Below are positions 55,084 to 64,000 of a stretch of 64,000 nucleotides of DNA, piece after piece. The translations under genes and the position numbers were made by a program. Location: assembly GCA_005222965.1 (NCBI GenBank), contig NJBG01000001.1, positions 799,533 through 863,532 on the forward strand. The letters run 5' to 3'. Every line of letters begins with the position of its first letter. The first letter of the stretch is position 1. Under the pieces are notes generated by a model that searched no databases, was not told where the DNA came from, and saw nothing but the letters and a program-made list of their open reading frames with translations. The stretch is from Candidatus Woesearchaeota archaeon B3_Woes (lineage in GTDB: Archaea; Nanobdellota; Nanobdellia; Woesearchaeales; B3-WOES).

Positions 55084-55839
55084 ATGAAGCTTTTTTCAAC
55101 AAAAAAAAGAGATGAAAATCTTCATTATACTTTACAAACTTCTTTCCAAGGAGTTAAAGGAGACATCTCCAAAATATTTGAATGGCTTAACTACCTTTAC
55201 AACAAAACAATCCAACAGGAAAAAGTTATCCATCATCTTCAAAAACAAATCATGTATGTTCCAAAATCAAGTGAGGAGTTAAGACAGTTAATGGATTCCT
55301 ACTACTCCATCACACCTTTAGAAAATAAAGTTGATAGACTAAACTCAAAAGTTGATTCTCTCTACCAATCTCAACGTACAGTTCTCTCATTAAAATACCA
55401 AATAGAGCATATTCAAGCGAGAATTGAAACACTATCAAAATCATCTTCTGTAAACCATCTAATACCTCAAATAGAGAGGATAAATACTAAAATTGAAGAG
55501 TTAAATGAGGAACAAAAAACCATTAAAAACAGCATAGAACAACAACAACTAGAAAAGCCAGATCCTAATGTTCCACCTATCCACTTAAAAGAAAAACTCA
55601 TTAGAAAAATCGCAAGATCGAGTAAAGAACACATAAAAACCATCATTAGAACATTGATAATGAAATACGGAAAAATCTCAGCTCTACAACTAAGAGACAT
55701 CCTTGTAGAAGAACAAGCACTCTGCTCAAAAAGCACATTCTACAGGCTTTTAGAAGAACTAGAACAAGATCATGATATATCAGTTATTCACGAGAAAAAA
55801 GAGAAAAAATACGTTTATGATACGCTTAAAGTAAAGTAA
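55084..55839 (+). CDS. Coiled-coil plus winged-helix protein
   Basis: A 251-residue protein: N-terminal part with short helices, central coiled coil (about 55-160, MDSYYSITPLENKVDRLNSKVDSL, ERINTKIEELNEEQKTIKNSIEQQQ) and a C-terminal winged helix (residues 178-250: HIKTIIRTLIMKYGKISALQLRDILVEEQALCSKSTFYRLLEELEQDHDISVIHEKKEKKYVY). No nuclease or catalytic motif. It sits right beside the repeat array, whose sites it may bind for autoregulation, segregation or replication-like initiation. Leaderless, TATA at 55046. Confidence 0.72.
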   Translation: MKLFSTKKRDENLHYTLQTSFQGVKGDISKIFEWLNYLYNKTIQQEKVIHHLQKQIMYVPKSSEELRQLMDSYYSITPLENKVDRLNSKVDSLYQSQRTVLSLKYQIEHIQARIETLSKSSSVNHLIPQIERINTKIEELNEEQKTIKNSIEQQQLEKPDPNVPPIHLKEKLIRKIARSSKEHIKTIIRTLIMKYGKISALQLRDILVEEQALCSKSTFYRLLEELEQDHDISVIHEKKEKKYVYDTLKVK

Positions 55840-56472: not shown

Positions 56473-56574
56473 GATTTTAAAGGCCTTTTTTGCTTAAATT
56501 TCTTTCAAAACATAGAAATCATTAATCCAACCACATTTCAAGGCCTAAAATCAAAAATAAAGGCAATTTTATTG

Positions 56575-56660
56575 AAAATGCAACACTTCTCAGTATTCTG
56601 TTTCATTTTTAAGGCATTTTTTGGCCAAAACACAACATTTAAATACAAGTGTTGCATTTT
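56575..56660. repeat. 14-bp perfect inverted repeat, 58-bp spacer
   Basis: AAAATGCAACACTT (56575-56588) and AAGTGTTGCATTTT (56647-56660) are exact complements. The spacer contains a TATA-like CATTTAAATAC at its right side (about 56636-56646), so the right arm overlaps the likely transcription start of the recombinase leader. This fits an operator pair or DNA loop site for the recombinase gene. Confidence 0.6.
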
Positions 56661-56669
56661 TTAGTGAAA

Positions 56670-56733
56670 TTAAAGCTTTGAAAAAGGTTTATGGCTTTTT
56701 AATTTAAAGCTTTGAAAAAGGTTTATGGCTTTT
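56670..56733 (+). repeat. Two tandem 30-bp direct repeats in the recombinase leader
   Basis: TTAAAGCTTTGAAAAAGGTT plus TATGGCTTTT is present at 56670-56699 and again, identical, at 56704-56733 (period 34). Each unit has partial dyad symmetry (TTAAAGC near one end, GCTTTT near the other) and is 5-6 bp from the integrase ATG. Each also contains ATGGCTTTT, giving a tiny frame. They may be a crossover site, a leader-peptide regulator, or a duplication; function unknown. Confidence 0.65.
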
Positions 56734-56737
56734 CAAA

Positions 56738-57391
56738 ATGGCAAAAAAATTTAACGAATACTATCTTGGATGGGATGAAATAAACAGCATCATAGCTGCA
56801 GCTAAAAATCTAAAAGAAAGCCTAGTTCTAAAGCTGTTAGCAAGAACAGGAATGAGGCGCTTTGAACTAGCTAACCTAAAAGCAAAAGATGTTGATTTTG
56901 AGAGGAAAAGACTATTTATTGCTAAGGGAAAAGGAGCAAATGAAAAAGATCCAAAATCAAGATCAGTTCCAATTGACGATGATACCATTCAAGTAATAAA
57001 ATTCTATTTAGAAGGCCGAAAAACAGGCTTTTTAATCCAAAGCAATAAAAAAACCTCTGATGGCATCTCATTAAGCCAAATAAACCGTATTGTGGCTAAC
57101 GCAGCCAAAAGAGCGCATGTTAATAACCCAAATCCAAATCTAAAGAACCTAAATCCTCATATCTTTCGTCATAGCTTTTCTCGACTGAGTTTAGCAGCTG
57201 GAATACCCTTTAACATGGTCCAAAGAATTGCTGGCCATGCAGACGCTAGGACTACTTTACAAATGTACGGAATTCCTTCAATAACAGACACTCAAGAGCT
57301 CTATGAAGAAAAGCTAATAGAGAAATTTAAGCAAAAACCAAAGTCAAAAAACAATACAAAATTGACAAAATTCACAGAAAAATCAAAGTAA
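56738..57391 (+). CDS. Tyrosine recombinase, catalytic domain only
   Basis: A 217-residue tyrosine recombinase. Catalytic residues are recognisable: R40 (TGMRRFE), beta-hairpin Lys near 63-65, H141-x2-R144 (HIFRHSFSRL), H167 (GHADA), and the nucleophile Y177 (TTLQMYG). The N-terminal core-binding/SAM-like domain of Xer and phage integrases is missing, giving a short enzyme. The C-terminal tail is Lys-rich. The gene is preceded by tandem repeats that could be its sites. Likely belongs to a mobile element or resolves dimers. Confidence 0.85.
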   Translation: MAKKFNEYYLGWDEINSIIAAAKNLKESLVLKLLARTGMRRFELANLKAKDVDFERKRLFIAKGKGANEKDPKSRSVPIDDDTIQVIKFYLEGRKTGFLIQSNKKTSDGISLSQINRIVANAAKRAHVNNPNPNLKNLNPHIFRHSFSRLSLAAGIPFNMVQRIAGHADARTTLQMYGIPSITDTQELYEEKLIEKFKQKPKSKNNTKLTKFTEKSK

Positions 57392-57833: not shown

Positions 57834-57836
57834 CTA
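57801..57836. repeat. Inverted pair at 3' end of Fic gene
   Basis: TAGGTGACTACA (57801-57812) and TGTAGACACCTA (57825-57836) are complementary with one mismatch and a 12-bp loop. The Fic stop codon lies in the last three bases. The same sequence as the promoter pair at 58740-58781. It can form a terminator-like stem, or bind the same factor. Confidence 0.6.
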
Positions 57837-58727
57837 TTTGTATTGTTTTCTATACTCTAATATAAAAAACCTTAATGTGGGTTTTATATCATTATCTTTA
57901 TCAAATTCCTGAAGAACCCTATAATACTTTTCCCTATCTTTTAATCTAATATTTAATGGAGGATAATCAAATTGAAGCAAAATATAATTTAATAGTAATC
58001 TTCCAACTCTTCCATTCCCATCTTGGAATGGATGAATATTCTCAAATTGATTATGGACAAGAGCAGCAAGCAATAAAGGAGGGTACTTCTTTTTATGTTC
58101 ATTAAACCATCTAACTAAATTCTTTAAAAGTTTCTCAACATCTTTTACAGGTGCGCCTTGGTGAATTACTTTACCTATTTTATCTCTAATAATAACTTCA
58201 ACATCTCTTAGTTCTCCTGCAAAAGATTTGGTTTTATCAAAACATAGCTCATGAAGTTTTCTAATAAAACCAATAGAAAAATCATCCTTAGTTGTTTTTA
58301 TATATTCAACAGCCTTTGCCACATTAATTGTTTCAATCTCATCATTATTTTTTGGTTCATCTTTTTTTCCAAGAAGATCTTTAACCTCAGAATAATCTAC
58401 CATTGACCCCTCAATAGCATTTGTATTAAAAACAAATTCTTGTGTGAATCTTTTCCAATTTACTTGAAAATGGTTTATTTCTAATTTATTTTCATATTTT
58501 TTATAATATCCAATTTCTTCTTTGCTTAACTCAAATTCAAACAAACTTTTTTCTTTAATCTGTTCAAAAATTATTTTTTCGGATATTTTTTTTAATTTTT
58601 CAAGCGTTTTTTTATCTAAATCAGAACCAAGATATCTTGAAATTCTATTAACTTTATCTCCTAACCTATAAGAATGAATTAAATAATATTTTTTCTTTTT
58701 ACCTTGCTTTCTAATTTCAATAAACAT
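57834..58727 (-). CDS. Fic-domain protein with inhibitory N-terminal motif
   Basis: About 297 residues. Fic motif HPFQDGNGRVGR (232-243) is complete, so it can AMPylate (or otherwise modify) protein hydroxyls. The inhibitory motif (S/T)xxxE(G/N) occurs at 102-107 (TNAIEG), the class II arrangement. Residues 1-90 are an additional coil/wing-like region with KQGKKKKYYLIHSY. A minus-strand TATA (AGTTTTATAAAT) lies 25-30 bp upstream of the ATG at 58727; the alternative ATG 58736 is also in frame. Flanked by inverted repeats. Confidence 0.85.
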   Translation of the reverse strand: MFIEIRKQGKKKKYYLIHSYRLGDKVNRISRYLGSDLDKKTLEKLKKISEKIIFEQIKEKSLFEFELSKEEIGYYKKYENKLEINHFQVNWKRFTQEFVFNTNAIEGSMVDYSEVKDLLGKKDEPKNNDEIETINVAKAVEYIKTTKDDFSIGFIRKLHELCFDKTKSFAGELRDVEVIIRDKIGKVIHQGAPVKDVEKLLKNLVRWFNEHKKKYPPLLLAALVHNQFENIHPFQDGNGRVGRLLLNYILLQFDYPPLNIRLKDREKYYRVLQEFDKDNDIKPTLRFFILEYRKQYK

Positions 58728-58739
58728 TATTAACATATA

Positions 58740-63508: not shown

Positions 63509-64000
63509 TTAACCAACATAACTCAACTTCTTGGCATCAGCCATACCTTTTGCTTCTTCACCTTTCTTTAGAAGTCCTTTTAATTTCTCCTCGAATTTAG
63601 CTGCCTGTTCAAGTAAAGGATCTGGATTAACCTTTAATCCTAAATACTGGTCTAATACTTTTATAACCCTTGCAGCAGCTTTGCTATCTGGTAAATCAGT
63701 ATGTGTCTCTGCAAATATACAGCTTAGAGCAGGTTTCTCAACATTTAACAACAAAGCACCTGTAACACCCATTATAATTCCCTCTTTTAATGGATTTAAA
63801 CCGATTTTACTTAATTTCTTCTTAGCATTTACATTTTTAGAAAAATAAAATACTCTCTCAGCATCTGGTTTTGTTGCAGGACTTCCTACTCCTTCTAAAC
63901 TAATAATCTCTTTAGCTCCTAAATCTCTAGCTAATTTTTGGATTATATCTGATAACTTCCACTCTATTCCAGTAGAAGCAGTTACAGCATGAATAATAAC
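63509..64000 (-). CDS. PAC2-family (proteasome assembly chaperone) protein, partial
   Basis: The frame is open through the right edge, with at least 163 residues (HAVTASTGIEWKLSDIIQKLARDLGAKEIISLEGVGSPATKPDAERVFYF...GIIMGVTGALLLNVEKPALSCIFAETHTDLPDSKAAARVIKVLDQYLG). It has the family core of archaeal PAC2/PbaB-type chaperones, whose role in proteasome assembly is suggested but not certain. The C-terminus is complete at 63509; the start lies outside the window. Confidence 0.85.
   Translation of the reverse strand, partial: VIIHAVTASTGIEWKLSDIIQKLARDLGAKEIISLEGVGSPATKPDAERVFYFSKNVNAKKKLSKIGLNPLKEGIIMGVTGALLLNVEKPALSCIFAETHTDLPDSKAAARVIKVLDQYLGLKVNPDPLLEQAAKFEEKLKGLLKKGEEAKGMADAKKLSYVG

Follow-up and report, generated by a model that had tools for sequence, protein, structure and literature searches.

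A minimal tyrosine recombinase of Woesearchaeales and the paired dyads in its leader: a candidate Xer/dif-like resolution module

The window, i.e., the whole stretch of 64,000 nucleotides (64 kb) analyzed here, corresponds to G000:C1:799533-863532 of a 1.02-Mb Woesearchaeales genome. It contains a gene for a small tyrosine recombinase with a repeat-bearing leader, located between two winged-helix-like genes and a PAC2-like gene. The features relevant to the following analysis are:

55084-55839, + strand: wHTH2, neighboring gene for a second coiled-coil/winged-helix-like protein of 251 aa
55894-56472, + strand: wHTH1, conserved neighboring gene for a coiled-coil and winged-helix-like protein of 192 aa (weak DnaD_N match, 0.0019, below cut-off)
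56575-56588, + strand: left arm of a 14-bp inverted repeat, the outer arm of site A
56578-56606, + strand: site A, 29-bp dyad (11-7-11), ATGCAACACTTCTCAGTATTCTGTTTCAT, conserved in orthologues as ACGCAACATTTCTACTACTTTTGTTGCGT
56630-56657, + strand: site B, 28-bp dyad (11-6-11), ACACAACATTTAAATACAAGTGTTGCAT, beginning 52 bp after the start of site A
56638-56645, + strand: TATA-like box TTTAAATA at the center of site B, read from the sequence; most orthologues retain it in their B sites
56647-56660, + strand: right arm of the 14-bp inverted repeat, the outer arm of site B
56670-56699, + strand: copy 1 of a perfect tandem 30-bp repeat, private to this genome and without counterpart in orthologous leaders
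56704-56733, + strand: copy 2 of the tandem repeat, a perfect match to copy 1 with a period of 34
56738-57391, + strand: minimal tyrosine recombinase of 217 aa, catalytic domain only (PF00589, 2.1e-26, residues 13-177)
63512-64000, − strand: PAC2-like gene, continuing past the window end (G000:C1:863044-863754), the synteny anchor on the far side

Gene names at the locus are partly our assumption. This applies to PAC2, a name not derived from a Pfam match, and to the genes beyond wHTH1 and wHTH2, which we take to be RpoL, AMMECR1, and methyltransferase genes. The interval between the recombinase and PAC2 differs in gene content between genomes; in the window, it harbors a Fic-family gene (57834-58736; PF02661, 1.3e-21) with a weak match to 'mobile mystery protein B'. 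A defense system was considered and rejected, the recombinase having no PADLOC match, while the Fic neighbor has one and wHTH2 has weak coiled-coil matches only.

An earlier note on this DNA had described the recombinase as a truncated protein retaining the catalytic part only. The latter was borne out, as PF00589 was the sole Pfam domain found and there was no N-terminal SAM-like core-binding domain. Truncation, in contrast, does not agree with the relatives: the open frames of orthologues (58-85% identity) measure 211-283 aa, and residues R40, K65, H141, R144, H167, and Y177, which we take to be the catalytic R-K-H-R-H-Y set of tyrosine recombinases, are invariant in 11 of 11 homologues of two types. 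An AlphaFold2 model (pLDDT 77.5) gave XerA (5hxy) as the best PDB match (E 1.7e-12). As the relatives are equally short, the catalytic residues invariant, and the model XerA-like, the 217-aa protein is, judged by sequence and model, an intact minimal enzyme with predicted catalytic activity and not a fragment. The archaeal XerA profile NF040815 scored 118.7 bits, below its curated cut-off of 220, and aligned over positions 94-257 of 263 only, which does not support membership in that family. Elsewhere (G000:C1:103217-103678), the same genome encodes another XerA-like recombinase, this one full-length with a frame of 284 aa.

Both repeats reported in the leader were confirmed. The two perfect 30-bp copies are the only direct repeat of at least 20 bp within 200 bp in the 64-kb window (0 perfect pairs expected from shuffles), and the perfect 14-bp inverted repeat is the only one with arms of at least 13 bp within 150 bp. 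For the inverted repeat, the proposal of operators or target sites next to the recombinase is supported, as the repeat outlines two dyads that are conserved across families, the second of which surrounds the TATA box; it is not supported for the tandem repeat, which occurs in no orthologous leader and was for this reason rejected as an att site or operator. A third copy of the 30-bp unit was sought in the genome and only partial matches were obtained (best 87% over 30 bp), i.e., the copies exist here only, an outcome that the note itself had listed as part of what would refute its interpretation. One partial match (L005) is a promoter-like AAAAAAGGTTTAT before an ATG, and the remaining ones were AT-rich look-alikes upon inspection. 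By eye, the unit has weak partial dyad symmetry (AAAGC...GCTTT), sites A and B being the stronger dyads. It looks like a private local duplication, which perhaps adds a promoter-like AAAAAGGTTTAT to the leader. A further perfect inverted repeat of 17 bp (56487-56503 and 57321-57337, with 817 bp between) encloses the leader together with the greater part of the recombinase gene; no counterpart was seen in orthologues, and an invertible segment based on this repeat was rejected, as the repeat is not conserved.

Sites A and B form a conserved pair. By their arms, leaders fall into a GCAACA type (A = ACGCAACATTTCTACTACTTTTGTTGCGT, B = ACGCAACATTTAAATACAAGTGTTGCGT) and a GTAACA type (A = ACGTAACACTTTATACAGAATGTTACGT-like, B = ACGTAACATTTAAATAATCTGTTACGT), the respective recombinases being 33-41% identical. 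The pair was present in all 29 loci scanned, compared to 0 of 300 Markov controls, and in 27 of these loci A and B start precisely 52 bp apart, close to five helical turns; the exceptions, L027 (53 bp) and L029 (51 bp), both match A/B poorly. Two loci with 36% identity and no visible A/B (L031 and L022) were left out of site and tree work. G284, a doubtful member with 42% identity, a leader without A/B, and neither PAC2 nor wHTH1 nearby, is outside these 29 loci but counted among the 30 genomes with the tyrosine recombinase. By its sequence and location, TTTAAATA inside site B is likely the TATA box of the recombinase promoter. With 11-bp arms, centers within 6-8 bp, and a single locus per chromosome in 10 genomes, A and B have the properties of dif-like sites; as their centers differ, the two cannot be identical crossover sites. 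Exact matches to CAACA-N12/13-TGTTG numbered 1-8 per genome in these 10 genomes, as did those to a reversed control, and matches outside the leaders lacked the conserved inside; in the window's genome, the CAAC...GTTG core of site B with the conserved inside occurs once. Dispersed A/B sites in the flanks were rejected, none being found above chance, and in nine GCAACA-type and three GTAACA-type loci neither A nor B had an inverted counterpart downstream of the gene. Two further leader observations were made. Many f63 leaders of the GTAACA type (e.g., L043, L046, and L055) have a further motif resembling CCCTTCGACGC some 10-20 bp ahead of site A; similar letters also precede some serine recombinases (L145 and L146). 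In L036, site B is separated from the start codon by an insertion of about 200 bp (roughly positions −225 to −19 relative to the recombinase start) that contains nested inverted repeats (GTAACTGCTAACA...TGTTAGCAGTTAC) and may be a small mobile element or a structured RNA.

Equally short orthologues, also from other families, were identified in 11 of 118 genomes (E ≤ 1e-20) and in 30 of 352 genomes of the order (E ≤ 1e-25); six orthologous loci came from another contig collection, all titled Woesearchaeota or Nanoarchaeota/Nanoarchaeia. Wherever contigs permitted judgement (26 of 29 loci; flanks were too short for an orientation call in L056, L070, and L071), the gene lies between wHTH1 and PAC2, in '+' orientation relative to both flanks in 15 loci and '−' in 11. 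Mapped onto the recombinase tree, orientation requires seven changes, of which well-supported branches force only two. The recombinase is 67-85% identical between genomes in which neighboring core genes are 40-66% identical, and the similarities are discordant: the window and L023 share 85% identity in the recombinase and 44% in wHTH1, compared to 73% and 77% for L023 and L038. Higher conservation than that of the neighbors, together with this discordance, points to horizontal spread of the recombinase.

The same slot is used by serine recombinases. In family f63, a PAC2-like gene was found in 42 of 49 genomes (E ≤ 1e-20), and among 17 f63 loci read that lack the tyrosine recombinase, nine have, next to and convergent with PAC2, the gene for a serine recombinase that contains PF00239 and PF07508 and is about 245-265 aa long. 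Across the order, this serine recombinase occurs in 31 of 352 genomes (E ≤ 1e-30), with PAC2 or wHTH1 adjoining 16 of the 30 loci read with 1.5-kb flanks. No genome has both enzymes. The expected overlap of the 30 tyrosine and 31 serine genomes is 2.6 of 352 (P(0) = 0.055), which is weak evidence of exclusivity by itself, and that within f63 (16 of 49 genomes each) is 5.2 (P(0) = 3.5e-4); as the genomes are related, the significance of these values, like that of the XerA depletion described below, is overstated. Different types occur among close relatives, one genus including G241 (tyrosine) along with G242 and G243 (serine), and genus g143 having both tyrosine types plus a serine type. Serine leaders contain GGG-NN-CCC in 25 of 30 cases, with the centers AA (9), CT (6), AG (5), and TT (5), none of which is self-complementary. 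Such an asymmetric 2-bp center is as expected for the crossover site of a serine recombinase with a 2-bp overlap.

Presence of either module coincides with absence of the canonical XerA. Using a query from L138 and a threshold fixed beforehand (E ≤ 1e-65), we found canonical XerA in 111 of 352 genomes, comprising only one of the 61 genomes with a tyrosine or serine module, but 110 of the 291 without (Fisher p = 4.6e-10); the single exception is the doubtful member G284. As a looser control, any XerA-family match was scored, on the basis of a hand-copied match table, and was obtained in 44 of 61 module genomes versus 206 of 291 others; when the threshold of this analysis was varied after the table had been seen, p was 0.003 at 1e-65 and reached 1.9e-8 at 1e-73. 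As genomes with and without a module do not differ in the looser signal, it is the canonical gene that is depleted. By this measure, the modules take the place of canonical XerA in their carriers, while a different XerA paralogue remains in most of these. The canonical gene is itself linked to the slot, lying within about 5 kb of PAC2 in five (G011, G226, G227, G229, and G247) of the six genomes in which a single contig carries the two genes and 33 kb away in the sixth (G222); in G040, a further XerA-family gene is located 3.4 kb from PAC2. Many canonical xerA leaders have a GTTCGYATAA arm, and in three of them (L194, L200, and L204) dif-like 11-6-11 sites could be recognized by eye. About half of the 352 genomes have none of the tyrosine type, the serine type, and canonical XerA.

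We also compared the position of the slot with that of orc1 and with nucleotide skew. In the near-complete G240 (serine type, contig of 1.47 Mb), AT skew switches at two places, namely the recombinase (−0.061 to +0.138) and orc1 (+0.039 to −0.099), which lie antipodal to each other with arcs of 717 and 754 kb; in G055, the skew sign also changes across the serine locus. The change is weak in G233, and there is no clear switch in G263, G265, and G347. In the window's genome, the locus lies 361/660 kb from the best orc1 match (127 degrees) and is not antipodal to it; the skew is noisy without a switch at the locus, and GC skew gives no terminus there. Where recombinase-less genomes have PAC2 and orc1 on the same contig, the arc between the two genes spans approximately (the underlying sizes being rounded) 10% (G141), 13% (G111), 22% (G310), 26% (G011), 36% (G177), and 47% (G040) of the genome, and an antipodal position as a general rule was rejected on these grounds. 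Taken together, skew and arcs support a location at the terminus in two genomes, but not in general.

The conserved spacing, the single locus, the intact catalytic residues, the replacement by serine recombinases, the linkage of xerA to the slot, and the absence of canonical XerA favor a module in the Xer role. We thus lean, by a modest degree, towards regarding leader and gene as a self-contained, autoregulated Xer/dif-like resolution module standing in for XerA. The recombinase would bind dyads A and B as dimers, which the 52-bp spacing of five turns would hold on one face of the helix, and, since the TATA box lies inside B, binding there would also silence its own promoter. Both dyads would make up the recombination site, with B (11-6-11) as the likelier crossover core and A as an accessory element. 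Following replication, two site copies, on sister chromosomes or within a dimer, would be recombined to yield monomers, a step modeled on XerS at its adjacent difSL. In relatives, this slot, the presumed Xer position of the chromosome, is occupied by the GTAACA-arm tyrosine type, by XerA, or by two minimal serine types that have core sites of their own. Whereas the repeats, their conservation and spacing, the single and shared locus, the intact catalytic residues, and the mutual exclusivity are observed, DNA binding, repression of the recombinase promoter, recombination, and a role in resolving chromosomes are inferred. Several observations run counter to it: the XerA-family paralogue kept by 44 of 61 carriers could be the resolvase, about half of the 352 genomes lack both recombinase types and canonical XerA, the centers of A and B differ, and the positional data are unfavorable in the window's genome (neither antipodal to orc1 nor at a skew switch), weak in G233, unclear in G263, G347, and G265, and often far from antipodal for PAC2 in genomes without the recombinase.

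Some of the same data could be explained by a solitary selfish element, in which gene and site spread among Woesearchaeales into a preferred intergenic spot and exclusivity merely reflects occupied space. The patchy distribution (30 of 352 genomes), the excess and discordance of recombinase similarity relative to core genes, the co-occurrence of both tyrosine types and a serine type in genus g143, and the seven orientation changes would fit. A second A or B was not found at the other end of the gene or, by core pattern in 10 genomes, elsewhere, though, and the cargo or duplicated att sites at both ends that mark a mobile-element integrase were not found, the neighbors being conserved chromosomal genes. 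Viral carriers were likewise rejected, a peptide-pattern scan of 2.9 million viral contigs having revealed none. Occupied space also leaves the depletion of canonical XerA unexplained, XerA often not being seen at this spot, and we consider this explanation unlikely. The two readings are not mutually exclusive, as a horizontally spread resolution module would look alike. A purely regulatory role, with A and B as operators and the recombinase turned repressor of its own or neighboring genes in the manner of MrpR, is less probable still. The TATA box inside B and a five-turn spacing suited to cooperative operators agree with it, and MrpR, a recombinase-fold regulator, appeared in the fold search at rank 50; but the full catalytic set is invariant between types that are 34-41% identical, and an operator would have no need for the asymmetric 2-bp center in the leader site of the serine recombinases that take the same place. 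Least probable, and in our view improbable outright, is a phase-variation switch, with the recombinase inverting either the gene that encodes it or the promoter of this gene. Both orientations relative to the flanks (15 and 11 of 26 loci), the 17-bp inverted repeat of the window, and FimE-type invertases among short catalytic-only recombinases (weak profile matches) speak for it. However, flanking inverted repeats of the kind that accompany FimB/FimE-type invertases were limited to this one 17-bp pair and seen in no other orthologue, inversion through it would cut off the C-terminus of the protein, A and B lack a downstream inverted partner in the 12 loci mentioned above, and orientation is uniform in genus g155 (three of three flipped).

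With respect to known systems, the favored resolution module resembles XerS/difSL of streptococci and lactococci, where a single tyrosine recombinase gene adjoins its resolution site (PMC5357621), a precedent for gene and site as one unit. XerS has 356 aa and acts on a 31-bp difSL with an 11-bp center (PMC5357621), whereas the archaeal enzyme described here has 217 aa without an N-terminal domain, is preceded by a pair of dyads spaced by 52 bp that includes a TATA box, and has serine recombinases as alternates. Archaeal XerA is the closest family by sequence and fold, and the dif site of Pyrococcus is a 28-bp 11-6-11 dyad (PMC2958812); differences are the profile coverage from position 94 only, the site in the gene's own promoter, and the arm ACGCAACA, which is unrelated to the GTTCGYATAA arm before canonical xerA in these genomes. 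XerL of Legionellales is a precedent for a lineage-specific single-recombinase system with a site near the terminus according to skew (PMC9765430). Its nucleophile is numbered Y387, so XerL is much longer, and the accessible text of PMC9765430 does not describe its site as part of the gene's promoter, unlike A/B here. Archaeal tyrosine recombinases with PF00589 only are documented in available sections of a review, in which DPANN are absent (HSTV2-like, fam30-07, fam30-17, and fam30-28; PMC8371274); the likeness is one of domain content alone. Archaea lack FtsK, and timing and direction of their chromosome resolution are described as an open question (PMC2958812, PMC8371274). The literature searched on Woesearchaeota tyrosine recombinases, DPANN XerA, and archaeal dimer resolution by serine recombinases yielded no account of such modules.

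The occupants of the slot, compared by sequence, suggest interchangeable systems for separating copied chromosomes. More broadly, we give a little under even chances to the view that Woesearchaeales repeatedly swapped Xer at one slot for non-homologous, self-contained modules, i.e., two catalytic-domain-only tyrosine and two minimal serine recombinases, each with a site in its own promoter. If true, chromosomes would be resolved by a serine recombinase as well as by the smallest tyrosine recombinases, with chemistries freely exchanged; the function and not the enzyme would be conserved, and small recombinase-plus-site cassettes would be open to testing. The resolvase of Tn3/gamma-delta, a transposon-borne serine enzyme, has its promoter within its own multi-dyad res site, which serves both resolution and autoregulation. 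For the tyrosine module, this is an analogy only, and the serine alleles resemble it more. As a last observation on serine leaders (L128 and others), AG and CT centers, like AA and TT centers, correspond to a single core that faces either way with respect to the gene.
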